Both the position numbers and the translations under genes were made by a program. The notes beneath the pieces were generated by a model. The model was not told where the DNA came from. It did not search any database and saw only the letters and a list, made by a program, of their open reading frames with translations. Below, piece by piece: positions 27,495 through 31,909 of a stretch of 64,000 nucleotides of DNA (its first letter is position 1; every line of letters starts with the position of its first letter). The DNA lies in contig NZ_CP139972.1 of assembly GCF_034424315.1 (NCBI RefSeq), positions 6,076,001-6,140,000 on the forward strand, in the 5' to 3' direction. The DNA comes from Chitinophaga sancti (GTDB taxonomy: Bacteria; Bacteroidota; Bacteroidia; Chitinophagales; Chitinophagaceae).

Positions 27495-28196
27495 ATGGAA
27501 GAACGTAAACCAAAGATATTACTGGCGGAAGATGATACCAACCTGGGTATGGTGCTCAAAAATTATCTTGAACTGAATGACTATGACGTGGAACTGTGCC
27601 GCGATGGTATTCTGGCACTGGCTGCCTTCAGAAGGGAGAAATTTGACATCTGCCTCCTGGATATCATGATGCCTAATATGGATGGTTTTAAACTAGCCGA
27701 GGAAATCCGCGATGTAGATCCGGACATTCCTTTATTCTTCCTCTCTGCCAAAACAATGAAAGAAGACATCATCCAGGGGTATAAGCTGGGTGCTGATGAC
27801 TATATTGCCAAGCCATTTGACAGTGAATTGCTCCTGTTGAAGATCAAAGCGATCCTGAAGAGAAACCAGGAACTGAACAGCAAAGAGGAAGAGCAGCACG
27901 AGTTTAAAATTGGCCGCTATGAATTCAATGCCCGCCTGCGTACCCTGACCCGTGATGGGGAAACACATACGCTCTCTCCAAAAGAGAATGAACTGTTACG
28001 CATGCTGTGCGAGCATAAGAATGACCTGCTGCCCCGCGAACTGGCACTGAAGAAGATCTGGGGTAGCGATACTTACTTCAATGGTCGTAGTATGGACGTG
28101 TATATCGCCAAGCTGCGCAAATACCTGAAGGAAGATCCCAATATCGAGATCGTGAACATTCACGGTAACGGTTTCCGCCTGGTAGTGAAAGATTAA
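27495..28196 (+). CDS. OmpR-family response regulator, orphan
   Basis: 233 aa. Receiver with ILLAEDDTNLG, phospho-acceptor Asp56 (CLLDIMMPNMDG) and AKPFDSELLLLKI; winged-helix domain with LSPKENELLRMLCEH and GRSMDVYIAKLRKYL, ending HGNGFRLVVKD. No kinase adjoins it: the next pair downstream is separated by a strong terminator. It resembles the regulator at 24182 closely in both domains and is likely its paralogue. Own promoter and terminator. Confidence 0.92.
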   Translation: MEERKPKILLAEDDTNLGMVLKNYLELNDYDVELCRDGILALAAFRREKFDICLLDIMMPNMDGFKLAEEIRDVDPDIPLFFLSAKTMKEDIIQGYKLGADDYIAKPFDSELLLLKIKAILKRNQELNSKEEEQHEFKIGRYEFNARLRTLTRDGETHTLSPKENELLRMLCEHKNDLLPRELALKKIWGSDTYFNGRSMDVYIAKLRKYLKEDPNIEIVNIHGNGFRLVVKD

Positions 28197-28214
28197 GATT
28201 GTAAAATAGCTCTG

Positions 28215-28259
28215 AGGCTGACTGAAAAGATTCGTATCTTTTCAGTCAGCCTTATTTTT
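28215..28259 (+). terminator. Strong terminator
   Basis: AGGCTGACTGAAAAGA (28215-28230) and TCTTTTCAGTCAGCCT (28237-28252) form a perfect 16-bp stem, followed by TATTTTT. Confidence 0.85.
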
Positions 28260-28266
28260 ATAGCGC

Positions 28267-28959
28267 ATGAAATTATTGTTAATAGAGGACGAACCGGCAG
28301 TAGTATCCTTCATTCACCGATATCTTACTGAAGCAGGGTATGATGTATCTGTAGCTATGGATGGACCCACTGGTCTGCAAATGGCAATGGAACATACCTT
28401 CTCGCTTATCATCCTGGATGTGATGCTGCCCGGAATGAGTGGAATTGCCGTGTGTAAGGAACTGCGCAGCCAACAAAATAAGACGCCTATCCTCATGCTG
28501 ACCGCACTGGGTTCTACGGAGAATGTGGTTTCCGGCCTGGATAGCGGTGCAGACGATTACCTGATCAAGCCATTTAAACAAGCGGAACTGCTGGCCAGGA
28601 TCCGCTCCCTGTTAAGAAGACAGCCTGAAAATACAGTTGCTGTGCCAGCCGCCGCAAACCTGCTCAAACTGGCAGACCTGGAACTGAATACTGATACCAA
28701 AAGCGCCAGCCGTAGCGGGGAAAGCATTACGCTTACTGCTACTGAATATCGCCTGCTGGAATATTTTTTGCGCAATCCCCGTCGTGTGTTGTCCAGAATG
28801 GAGATACTGGAAAATGTGTGGGGCATCGACTTTAATATGAATACCAAGGTCGTGGATGTGTATGTGAATTACCTCCGCAAGAAAGTAAACCGCAAAGACC
28901 TGCCAGCCCTTATCCAGACAGTGGTTGGGATGGGCTATATGCTGAAAGAAGAAGCATGA
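28267..28959 (+). CDS. OmpR-family response regulator of a kinase pair
   Basis: 230 aa. Receiver with LLLIEDEPAVV, phospho-acceptor Asp51 (IILDVMLPGMSG) and LIKPFKQAELLARI; winged-helix domain with LTATEYRLLEYF, WGIDFNMNTKVVDVYVNYLR and VVGMGYMLKEE. It overlaps the kinase gene by 4 bp, so they form an operon. The ATG follows the previous terminator by only a few bases, and a near-match box TATTTTTA at 28253-28260 suggests a leaderless or nearly leaderless message. Similar in layout to CusR/CopR-type pairs, but the signal is unknown. Confidence 0.92.
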   Translation: MKLLLIEDEPAVVSFIHRYLTEAGYDVSVAMDGPTGLQMAMEHTFSLIILDVMLPGMSGIAVCKELRSQQNKTPILMLTALGSTENVVSGLDSGADDYLIKPFKQAELLARIRSLLRRQPENTVAVPAAANLLKLADLELNTDTKSASRSGESITLTATEYRLLEYFLRNPRRVLSRMEILENVWGIDFNMNTKVVDVYVNYLRKKVNRKDLPALIQTVVGMGYMLKEEA

Positions 28960-30320
28960 GTATACGCATCAAAATACTGATCCTCTTTACTGCGCTGACA
29001 GTTTCTATCATCCTGCTGATGGCGGGGTGTGCTTACTTTCTCACCAATCAATATTCATTTACCGATTTTTATAAGCGCATTGAAATACGTGCCATTGTTG
29101 CTGCACGTGCTGTGCTGATCAAAGACAGGGATAACAGTGCTACCTATACGGAATTGCGTAACGAGCACCTGGAACGTATGCCTTATGAAAAGGAATACTT
29201 TCTAAAACTGGATAAGGATGGGCATTTCAAGCGTCCTGCGGCACTCAGTTCCCTGCCAGCCTCTTTTTTTGAAATGGTGCGGTTGCAGGGGAAGGCGAAT
29301 CATCGTAGCGGTGACACCTTCTTTACAGGCGTAGTATTTGGCACTGATCCCGACAAGTACATCGTTATTGTTTCTGCACGCAATGATTTTGGCAGCCGCT
29401 ACATGGCCGACCTGAAACAGGTACTGACCATCTGCCTGGCTACTGCGGGCATCCTGGTACTGGCAGCGGGCTTCTTCTTTTCGAGATACATCCTGCAGCC
29501 AGTAAGGGTCATGACCTCGCAGGTAAAGAACATCAGGGCGCACAACCTGCACCTGCGGCTGGATTCGCCAGACAGTAATGATGAAATGTTCGAACTGGCC
29601 CAGACTTTTAATAATATGCTGGACAGGCTGGAAACGGCTTTCGAAACACAGAACAATTTTGTCAGCAATGCCTCTCACGAGCTGGGAACACCGCTTACTG
29701 CCATCATTGGAGAGGCCGAGCTAGCCCTGAATAAACAACGTACAGATGAGGAATACCGCCAGTCCATACAAGTAATATTAGGAGAGGCCGAGCGCCTGGA
29801 GCATATTACTAAGAGCCTGTTACGCCTTGCCCAGACTGGTTTTGGAGGTAAAGGGCAGCAACGCGAACGGATTCGTATGGATGAACTGATCTTCTCTGTA
29901 AAAGATACGATTGACCAGATCAATCCTAATAATAAGGTAGAGATAGATTATTCTATGCTGCCGGAAGATGAGGCGAAGTTATTCATCCTGGGGGATGCGC
30001 AGTTGCTGCATCTTGCTTTCAGCAATATTGTACAGAATGCCTGCAAGTATTCTGATAACCGGGCCGTGAGTGTGGCGCTGGCAGCTACAGACGCCAATAT
30101 TATCTTACTGATCCAGGACCAGGGGATTGGGATCCCTGCATCCGAACTACCATTTATATACGATCCTTTCTTCCGCGCTTCTAATACAAGTGGTTATAAA
30201 GGCTATGGAATAGGCCTGCCTTTATCCCGTAATATTATCCGCCTGCATGGGGGTAATATCGTTGTAAACAGCCAGCAGGGCAAGGGCACAGAGATCAGGA
30301 TCACCCTGCCGGTTGCCTGA
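28956..30320 (+). CDS. Sensor histidine kinase with HAMP domain
   Basis: 454 aa. Transmembrane helices at about residues 5-29 and 150-175 bracket a periplasmic sensor region of roughly 120 residues. A HAMP linker follows (VRVMTSQVKNIRAHNLHLRL), then HisKA with SNASHELGTPLTAII (phospho-acceptor His241; Gly replaces the more usual Arg/Lys after HEL), and HATPase with NIVQNACKYSD, DQGIGIP and GYGIGLPLSRNII. It is co-transcribed with its regulator. Its own stop codon is immediately followed by a run of 11-bp-phased repeats ahead of the next gene. Confidence 0.92.
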   Translation: MSIRIKILILFTALTVSIILLMAGCAYFLTNQYSFTDFYKRIEIRAIVAARAVLIKDRDNSATYTELRNEHLERMPYEKEYFLKLDKDGHFKRPAALSSLPASFFEMVRLQGKANHRSGDTFFTGVVFGTDPDKYIVIVSARNDFGSRYMADLKQVLTICLATAGILVLAAGFFFSRYILQPVRVMTSQVKNIRAHNLHLRLDSPDSNDEMFELAQTFNNMLDRLETAFETQNNFVSNASHELGTPLTAIIGEAELALNKQRTDEEYRQSIQVILGEAERLEHITKSLLRLAQTGFGGKGQQRERIRMDELIFSVKDTIDQINPNNKVEIDYSMLPEDEAKLFILGDAQLLHLAFSNIVQNACKYSDNRAVSVALAATDANIILLIQDQGIGIPASELPFIYDPFFRASNTSGYKGYGIGLPLSRNIIRLHGGNIVVNSQQGKGTEIRITLPVA

Positions 30321-30363
30321 TTCTTACCGGATTCTTACCCCATTTTACCGGATTCTTACCACA
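30321..30363. promoter_or_regulatory. Four direct repeats in helical phase, candidate response-regulator operator
   Basis: Units TTCTTACCGGA (30321-30331), TTCTTACCCCA (30332-30342), TTTTACCGGA (30343-30352) and TTCTTACCACA (30353-30363). Spacing is 11, 11, 10 bp by unit and 11 overall, as in PhoB/OmpR-type sites. A weaker CTTACGG at 30388 keeps the phase (33 bp further) and sits where the -33 element of the next promoter should be. Confidence 0.6.
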
Positions 30364-30413
30364 TTTTTAATTTCCTTTTATCTCCTGCTTACGGGTTCCT
30401 AATCTCGTGGAAA

Positions 30414-30421
30414 TAGTTTTG
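30414..30421 (+). promoter_or_regulatory. -7 promoter box of the UspA-like gene
   Basis: TAGTTTTG, exact TAnnTTTG match, 26 bp before the ATG at 30440 and about 50 bp after the last strong phased repeat. Confidence 0.65.
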
Positions 30422-30919: not shown

Positions 30920-30933
30920 ATCTGTCTGTTTGA

Positions 30934-30975
30934 GTAGTGCTCTTTTCCTCGAAGGAGGGGGGAGCGCTATTTTTA
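30934..30975 (+). terminator. Hairpin between UspA-like and bestrophin genes
   Basis: AGTGCTC...CCTC pairs with GAGG...GGAGCGCT through several G-T wobbles, followed by ATTTTTAA. It is a possible partial terminator. Confidence 0.45.
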
Positions 30976-30997: not shown

Positions 30998-31909
30998 ATG
31001 CTACTCAAAAAAAATATACCGTTTAGATATGTGTTTGGCAAAATCAAATATGAAATTGCGTTAGTGGTATTATACACGCTTGTGATAGTATTAATACATG
31101 ACCGATTCAATCTGAAAGCAACCATCAACATACCATTGACTGTACCAATGATTATGGGTACAGTAATATCACTGCTATTGGCGTTTAGATCTAACCAGGC
31201 TTATGACCGGTGGTGGGAAGCGCGCACAGTGTGGGGCGCTATTGTGAACGATTCGCGTTCTTTTACGAGGGAGGTACTGACATTTATAAACAGTGCGGAG
31301 TTCCCTGAAGAAGCAGAACGCTTGCGGGAAAGAATGATCCGCCGGCAGATGGCATGGTGTTATTCACTGGGCCAGCAATTGAGAGGATTGTCTGCTACTG
31401 AGGGGTTGGAGCGACTGATCCCTAAGCGGGAAGTGGCTTATGTAGCACGCTTTGCGAATGTGCCGATGGCATTGCTGGAACTGCATGCAAAAGATCTGCA
31501 GATTGCTTTGCAACGTGACTGGATCAACGCTTATCAGCAGGTGCAGATTGATAGTACCCTGAATAAATTCAGTGATAGTATGGGTAAGTGTGAGCGTATC
31601 AAGAACACCGTATTTCCTTCCACCTACAGCTTGTACATTCATTTTGCATTGAACTTCTTTATCATGTTGCTGCCATTTGGCGTGATAGAGTTTTTTGGTT
31701 GGGGGGCAGTGCCTTTGGTAGGTGCGATTGCTGCATCCTTTCTGCTGATTGAGAAGATGGCTATACACCTGCAGGATCCGTTTGACAACAAACCAACGGA
31801 TACCCCTATGACGACTATTGCGCGGACAATAGAGCGGGATCTGCGGCAGATGCTCAACGACAATTATGTACCGGAAACACCGCCCGTGTACTCTTATTAT
31901 GTGATGTAG
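30998..31909 (+). CDS. Bestrophin family chloride channel-like protein
   Basis: 303 aa, integral membrane protein of the bestrophin/UPF0187 family; bacterial members form pentameric ion channels. Family stretches are clear: LLAFRSNQAYDRWWEARTVW after the second helix, LYIHFALNFFIMLLPFG, and HLQDPFDNKPTDTPM near the C-terminus. Four hydrophobic segments are visible (about residues 18-38, 45-64, 215-235, 240-258). It lies behind the UspA-like gene and probably shares its promoter, attenuated by the hairpin between them. Anion or cation selectivity cannot be told from sequence. Confidence 0.9.
   Translation: MLLKKNIPFRYVFGKIKYEIALVVLYTLVIVLIHDRFNLKATINIPLTVPMIMGTVISLLLAFRSNQAYDRWWEARTVWGAIVNDSRSFTREVLTFINSAEFPEEAERLRERMIRRQMAWCYSLGQQLRGLSATEGLERLIPKREVAYVARFANVPMALLELHAKDLQIALQRDWINAYQQVQIDSTLNKFSDSMGKCERIKNTVFPSTYSLYIHFALNFFIMLLPFGVIEFFGWGAVPLVGAIAASFLLIEKMAIHLQDPFDNKPTDTPMTTIARTIERDLRQMLNDNYVPETPPVYSYYVM

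Follow-up and report, generated by a model that had tools for sequence, protein, structure and literature searches.

PhoB and Bacillus subtilis PhoP act on direct repeats of ~11 bp (the Pho boxes, in the case of PhoB) that overlap or abut the core promoter, and Mycobacterium tuberculosis PhoP commands a large regulon. The sites of the latter are 7-bp direct repeats with a 4-bp spacer, which are occupied by tandem dimers, and possibly by trimers or tetramers on proper repeats, with one recognition helix placed per half-site and with Asn212 contacting four bases (PMC4832192, excerpt). In Staphylococcus aureus, the USP domain of KdpD binds c-di-AMP and lowers Kdp expression (PMC4686210, excerpt). 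KpBest, a bacterial bestrophin, conducts Na+ and has a neck consisting of I62, I66 and F70 (PMC8496536, excerpt).

The locus described here lies in a window of 64,000 nucleotides of Chitinophaga sancti, the whole stretch of DNA that was analysed, and comprises the genes for a response regulator, a membrane sensor kinase, a USP-like protein and a bestrophin (Table 1). Between the kinase and the USP-like gene runs a comb of eight head-to-tail half-sites in ~11-bp steps (30321-30404, by direct reading). Judging from sequence features, this comb is very probably the operator of the adjacent two-component system, through which the regulator would activate a dedicated USP-plus-transporter operon. 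Like the sites of M. tuberculosis PhoP, as described in the excerpted source, the repeats are arranged head to tail with an 11-bp period; unlike them, they make up eight half-sites phased to a Bacteroidota -7 box, consist of other bases and have a single local target in the genus. They likewise share with PhoB and B. subtilis PhoP the comb of ~11-bp direct repeats at the core promoter and differ in bases, in promoter type and in serving one USP-plus-transporter operon. As in the Kdp system (KdpDE, with a USP domain in KdpD), one circuit would join a two-component system with a putative USP fold and with an ion transporter; here, in contrast, the USP-like protein is a stand-alone chain without the ATP motif, and the membrane partner is a bestrophin, SulP or DUF1275 protein. 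The kind of operator is already known, as an OmpR-type direct-repeat operator, and this variant is marked by the promoter-locked comb of eight sites, the single-operon output and the variable transporter slot. Among the literature matches listed, covered as titles and abstract openings, none describes a two-component/USP/bestrophin unit or its operator, which does not imply absence from print.

Table 1. Genes, comb half-sites and promoter box of the module, in window coordinates
Feature	Position	Strand	Basis or remark
Response regulator, OmpR/PhoB type	28267..28959	+	Pfam Response_reg 9.8e-31, Trans_reg_C 6e-26
Regulator Lys194 codon, start of recognition helix	28846..28848	+	Best predictor of repeat sequence across relatives
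Membrane sensor histidine kinase, HAMP/HisKA/HATPase_c	28956..30320	+	Pfam
Half-site 1, TTCTTACC	30321..30328	+	Direct reading
Half-site 2, TTCTTACC	30332..30339	+	Direct reading
Half-site 3, ATTTTACC	30342..30349	+	10-bp step; register 70 bp before -7 box
Half-site 4, TTCTTACC	30353..30360	+	Register 59
Half-site 5, degenerate, TTTTTAAT	30364..30371	+	Register 48
Half-site 6, degenerate, CTTTTATC	30375..30382	+	Register 37
Half-site 7, TGCTTACG	30386..30393	+	Fifth copy of the earlier note; register 26
Half-site 8, TCCTAATC	30397..30404	+	Register 15
-7 promoter box, TAGTTTTG, Bacteroidota-type TAnnTTTG	30414..30421	+	Box common in upstream stretches of relatives
USP-like single-domain protein, 159 aa	30440..30919	+	Weak profile match, AF2 model
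Bestrophin, Bestrophin_2 family	30998..31909	+	PF25539, 1.7e-65; matches bacterial bestrophin structures 4wd7/4wd8

The regulator combines a receiver domain with a Trans_reg_C winged helix (PF00072, PF00486), the composition that defines the OmpR/PhoB family. The best NCBIfam models of regulator and kinase are those of heavy-metal systems of the CusRS/CopRS type (TIGR01387/TIGR01386; 216.7 and 215.9 bits); identity as a metal-efflux system was rejected on these scores, which lie under the curated cut-offs of 279.2 and 292.55, and, unlike in CusRS/CopRS-type systems, no metal-efflux gene stands directly downstream in the window module. A second, different OmpR-type regulator gene is located just upstream of the module (27495-28196) and is separated from it by a 19-pair terminator-like hairpin (28213-28254).

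The label ‘UspA-like’, given to the third gene by the earlier note, needs qualifying. A 13-row profile of the family finds weak matches to the PDB chains PH0823 (E 0.0045) and MJ0577 (E 0.18), which we take to be USP structures, and the AF2 model (pLDDT 86) alternates strands and helices in an order compatible with what is presumably the USP topology. On the other side, no Pfam or NCBIfam model matches the window protein, PF00582 is found in neither it nor five relatives (0 Pfam families), and G-2x-G-9x-G(S/T), the ATP motif of one USP class, is present in 0 of 100 USP-like sequences. Many ~280-aa proteins of the class are matched by this profile as well. Between this gene and the bestrophin gene, a strong hairpin with a T-rich stretch (30932-30972; -23.9 kcal/mol, z -3.5) may lower the bestrophin relative to the USP-like protein. 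The bestrophin domain PF25539 spans residues 12-283 of 303, and the protein belongs to the same family as KpBest and other bacterial bestrophins (4wd7, E 4e-29; 4wd8, E 2.5e-28). The KpBest neck residues I62, I66 and F70, taken from the excerpted source, align with T55, L59 and F63 of the window protein when counted by hand with an assumed three-residue offset. Because KpBest is a Na+ channel and the neck of the window bestrophin differs, selectivity cannot be read off.

The comb begins directly behind the kinase stop codon (TGA, 30318-30320) and ends nine bases short of the -7 box, its last core site starting 15 bp before the box. The earlier note had reported four leading (TT)CTTACC copies in steps of 11, 10 and 11 bp behind the kinase stop and a fifth 33 bp further on. 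The steps of the leading copies and their place right behind the kinase stop are as reported, except that copy 3 (ATTTTACC) is two bases off TTCTTACC; the fifth copy is indeed found (TGCTTACG at 30386), but the gap before it is not empty, holding two degenerate in-register half-sites (30364 and 30375), and with one more at 30397 the count is eight rather than five. The exact -7 box and the USP-like start behind it were confirmed (TAGTTTTG, 30414-30421; ATG, 30440). Owing to the 10-bp step, the two outermost sites are one base off register (80 and 91).

A scan for phased near-copies of an 8-mer (at most one mismatch, steps of 10-12) returns at least four copies at the comb as the sole place in the 64-kb window and at 0 places in each of three Markov copies. 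The top lag-11 self-match of the window, 27/40, also falls on the comb (1 of 63,950 positions), and a repeat search recovers a 25-nt family there with spacings of 11, 11, 10, 11 and 33. Genome-wide there is one exact TTCTTACC-N3-TTCTTACC pair, and looser patterns show no excess over their reversed-pattern controls (CTTACC-N5-CTTACC with at most one mismatch, 53 vs 76; TTCTTAC-N4-TTCTTAC with at most two, 78 vs 164). Chance and local composition were ruled out as the origin of the comb by the window scan together with the lag-11 autocorrelation and phased-site controls given below.

Conservation was followed over 138 loci, namely the window, 99 loci from the genus and family, three from named contigs, 18 from a phylum sample and 17 from a class sample; all were picked by their USP-like gene, and many are closely related. 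Loss of the repeats upstream of orthologues had been set beforehand as the outcome that would speak against the operator, and the repeats are kept: at least two phased exact CTWAY sites precede the USP-like gene in 109 of 138 loci, compared with 0, 2 and 0 of 138 in three control stretches. At least three phased sites (steps of one or two turns) are present in 83 loci (controls 0, 0, 0) and at least four, with a mismatch allowed, in 101 (controls 3, 4, 2), while at least three exact adjacent sites, a criterion judged too strict, are found in about 41-43 (controls 0). Two exact phased sites are missing in 29 loci, with L260 (genome G293) among those read. Between -140 and -25 of the USP-like gene, autocorrelation at lag 11 reaches z 35.9 in 67 genus loci and z 17.6 in 32 family loci from other genera, and the self-match at lag 22 gives z 23.6 and 13.2, respectively; the other genera thus share the 11/22-bp peaks though their repeat sequence differs. 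Further upstream, from -260 to -140, lag 11 gives z 5.5 (genus) and 0.5 (other genera) and does not rise above other lags. The period is not reproduced by dinucleotide shuffles.

The USP-like gene is present in 68 of 79 genus genomes, 35 of 117 in the family sample and 23 of 395 in the phylum sample (the last by single-sequence search). Within the genus, kinase and USP-like gene co-occur all-or-none, both being present in 68 of the 79 genomes and both absent in 11. A kinase orthologue (E 1.6e-122 or better) accompanies the USP-like gene in 67 of the 68 positive genomes, and the remaining one, G179 (65% complete), contains kinase fragments; among the 11 negative genomes, eight have no kinase match at E 1e-80 and three only a 34-36% identical paralogue (best 4.3e-86). 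Of the 138 loci, 129 have regulator as well as kinase within reach, four have one of the two and five have neither; the regulator lies divergently on the opposite strand in 16.

The comb is also fixed relative to the promoter. TAnnTTTG, which we take to be the Bacteroidota -7 consensus, has an exact match in the 110 bp before the USP-like gene in 86 of 138 loci (5/138 in a control stretch) and none there in the other 52. In the 86 boxed loci, 298 of 387 exact sites stand at 15+11n bp from the box (n 0-7), with 69, 56, 19, 35, 48, 49, 10 and 12 sites at 15, 26, 37, 48, 59, 70, 81 and 92 bp, respectively. The comb lies where the TTG of a -33 element would stand, and TTG is found in the -33 window of 0 of 86 boxed loci, whereas a control 10-mer at -400 gives 34 of 138. 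A fixed register together with a missing -33 element is how an activator-dependent promoter should look, and from the position of the sites we infer activation rather than repression. The regulator could conversely bind the comb and repress the operon, its sites overlapping the core promoter and its core sites coming as close as 15 bp to the -7 box, where repressors act as well. We consider this unlikely, since the sites extend ~90 bp upstream and the universal lack of the -33 TTG in boxed loci is what a promoter in need of an activator should display.

With the comb as an activator operator, the membrane kinase would sense a signal and phosphorylate the regulator, which would bind as side-by-side dimers, up to four. 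The last dimers would overlap the -33 region and recruit RNA polymerase in a class II-like activation. The output would be one dedicated operon encoding a USP-like protein without the ATP motif and a membrane channel or transporter, here the bestrophin, and the USP-like protein might, at a guess, be a cytosolic regulator of the transporter.

The sequence of the repeats varies with one residue of the regulator, Lys194, whose counterpart in the alignment with M. tuberculosis PhoP is Asn212. Of the regulator rows, 68 have Lys at this position and 46 have Asn (one broken row is unreadable there). CTWAC outnumbers CTWAT in 68 of 68 Lys rows, and the reverse holds in 42 of 46 Asn rows, with ties at L209, L228 and L260 and the opposite at L227. 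In an enlarged, thinned set, Lys goes with CTWAC in 40/40 and Asn with CTWAT in 62/67, L341 being opposite. Among the regulator columns scored (104 rows), 194 best predicts the repeat class (98.1%). Column 208 comes next (95.2%) and gets the three Lys rows from outside the genus wrong, and 192 follows the repeat class as well (90.4%). Loci beyond the genus that have Lys194 (L215, L041, L042, L043) show an excess of CTWAC, and loci within it that have Asn194 (L198, and L196 and L197 via the kinase-linked regulator) an excess of CTWAT. On trees built without the helix columns, the switch between Lys and Asn takes two or three changes, one of them forced by well-supported branches, and the independent Lys/Asn pairs number one (sign test p 1). 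The covariation is therefore suggestive rather than statistically secured, and could be a clade marker.

The two repeat types also differ in how widely they are used. A genus-wide search for the exact TTCTTACC pair gives 64 places, spread over 50 of 79 genomes, and a single one for the reversed pattern; 63 of the 64 precede the USP-like gene by 87-150 bp and share its strand. A large CTTACC regulon is thereby ruled out for the exact pair in the genus. The one exception, in genome G117 (L199; G117:C1:7342338-7350356, reverse strand, about 4000), is an additional CTTACC comb, at least five copies long and lacking an evident target gene. TTCTAAT arrays, in contrast, are generic. The exact TTCTAAT pair gives 75 matches in 117 family genomes compared with 17 for the reversed control, and only 8 of the 75, by reading coordinates, are at the USP-like gene. 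Among the 30 loci listed, 25 are not at a USP-like gene, and 10 of these 25 have, as a raw count, a related regulator or kinase within 1.5 kb; six of these ten show a TNV/SNV-type helix. TTCTAAT pairs at 11 bp stand beside paralogous two-component genes of related genera at L359, L361, L366, L376, L377, L379, L381, L382, L386 and L388. In the GC-richer relatives L333, L340 and L341, which have an Asn-type regulator, the repeats read GATCCTAAT in place of TTCTAAT.

TTCTAAT is perhaps the general operator code of this regulator clade. The Lys194/CTTACC pair of Chitinophaga looks private and derived; by taking the place of the Asn194/TTCTAAT code, which paralogous systems have in common, it would insulate the circuit from those paralogues. 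The pairing of Lys or Asn at 194 with CTTAC or CTAAT offers a compact, testable case of a regulator and its operator perhaps changing code together, insulated from paralogues. A different OmpR-type regulator might nevertheless bind the comb, for example that encoded at 27495 or a 42% paralogue, with the adjacency being coincidental. The TTCTAAT combs beside paralogous systems in related genera (10 of 25 in the raw count) suggest that related regulators probably read similar combs. We nonetheless regard this as quite improbable, given that kinase and USP-like gene come and go together across 79 genus genomes, that the comb sequence tracks the module regulator and that, among the regulators found in the genome, the Lys helix belongs to this one only: 0 of 13 other matches at E 1e-25 have it, and the nearest paralogue has Asn at the 194 position.

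Loci in which the genes have come apart bear on the target of the module regulator. Five loci have no two-component system in reach (L231, L257, L261, L262 and L332). In four of the five genomes, a kinase orthologue with an Asn-type regulator lies elsewhere on the same contig, at distances of about 5, 20, 48 and 77 kb, and within 1.5 kb of these four remote loci no exact comb is found; G115, the fifth, yields no kinase match. CTWAT-type repeats remain before the USP-like gene at the unlinked loci. Two other genomes, G159 and G176, have a kinase ending ~2.6 kb upstream, and here too it is the USP-like gene that carries the comb. The central claim of the earlier note, control of the USP-like/bestrophin unit by the adjacent regulator through the comb, is thus supported in silico by conservation, promoter register, the tracking of residue 194, co-occurrence and the comb staying with the USP-like gene.

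Autoregulation of the two-component genes by the comb is conceivable for the divergent loci, where the comb lies between regulator and USP-like gene and could serve both. It is very improbable overall, as the stretch before the regulator gene in the window is occupied by the terminator-like hairpin (28213-28254) and no comb, and as no exact comb is found at the two-component loci that lie elsewhere. With no comb before the regulator’s own gene in the window layout, the module would act as a one-way local switch. It is scarcely credible that the repeats serve the kinase gene as a 3'-end or RNA element, or that local composition produced them. They do begin directly behind the kinase stop codon, and 30389-30410 is overlapped by a terminator-like match (8 such matches, with 3.1 expected from shuffles), but the comb is not behind the kinase in the 16 divergent loci, and in loci with the kinase elsewhere it remains at the promoter of the USP-like gene; this already contradicts such an element, and dinucleotide shuffles do not yield the period.

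The membrane partner in the putative operon is variable. The gene after the USP-like gene encodes a bestrophin in 107 of the 138 loci, DUF1275 in 19, SulP in nine and no recognised family in three; Pfam named four SulP and two DUF1275 examples, and the remaining assignments came from BLAST against these or against the window bestrophin. The bestrophin proposed by the earlier note as the controlled partner accordingly holds for the window and the 107 loci and not for the other three classes. On the regulator tree, a DUF1275/SulP group and a bestrophin group split at the starred branch, with the SulP locus L259, on a long branch, falling inside the bestrophin group. The bestrophin and SulP families include anion transporters. 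A gene beside one SulP locus that by eye resembled a carbonic anhydrase, considered as a hint of bicarbonate, was dropped, since Pfam assigned it no family and a search with it gave no match at the other eight SulP loci and one weak match, at the bestrophin locus L252.

To our knowledge, the physiological role of bacterial bestrophins and DUF1275 proteins is poorly understood. A conserved, dedicated switch with a predicted operator provides a handle on it, as the signal that fires the promoter would reveal this role. We tentatively propose, with rather more doubt than belief, a Bacteroidota-wide chassis of kinase, regulator, promoter-locked comb and ATP-motif-less USP-like protein that would run an interchangeable bestrophin/SulP/DUF1275 slot, the USP-like protein being the regulatory partner of the transporter and the change from Asn to Lys194, together with the comb, giving Chitinophaga a private insulated code. 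If so, DUF1275 proteins would transport ions, probably anions, and a physiological circuit would be in place for bacterial bestrophins. Different transporters behind one switch suggest equivalent jobs for three unrelated membrane families. A small lipocalin-like protein accompanies DUF1275 in 13 of its 19 loci (L213, L217, L221, L224, L225, L258, L333, L334, L336, L339-L341 and L344), one tested example scoring just under the Pfam cut-off.
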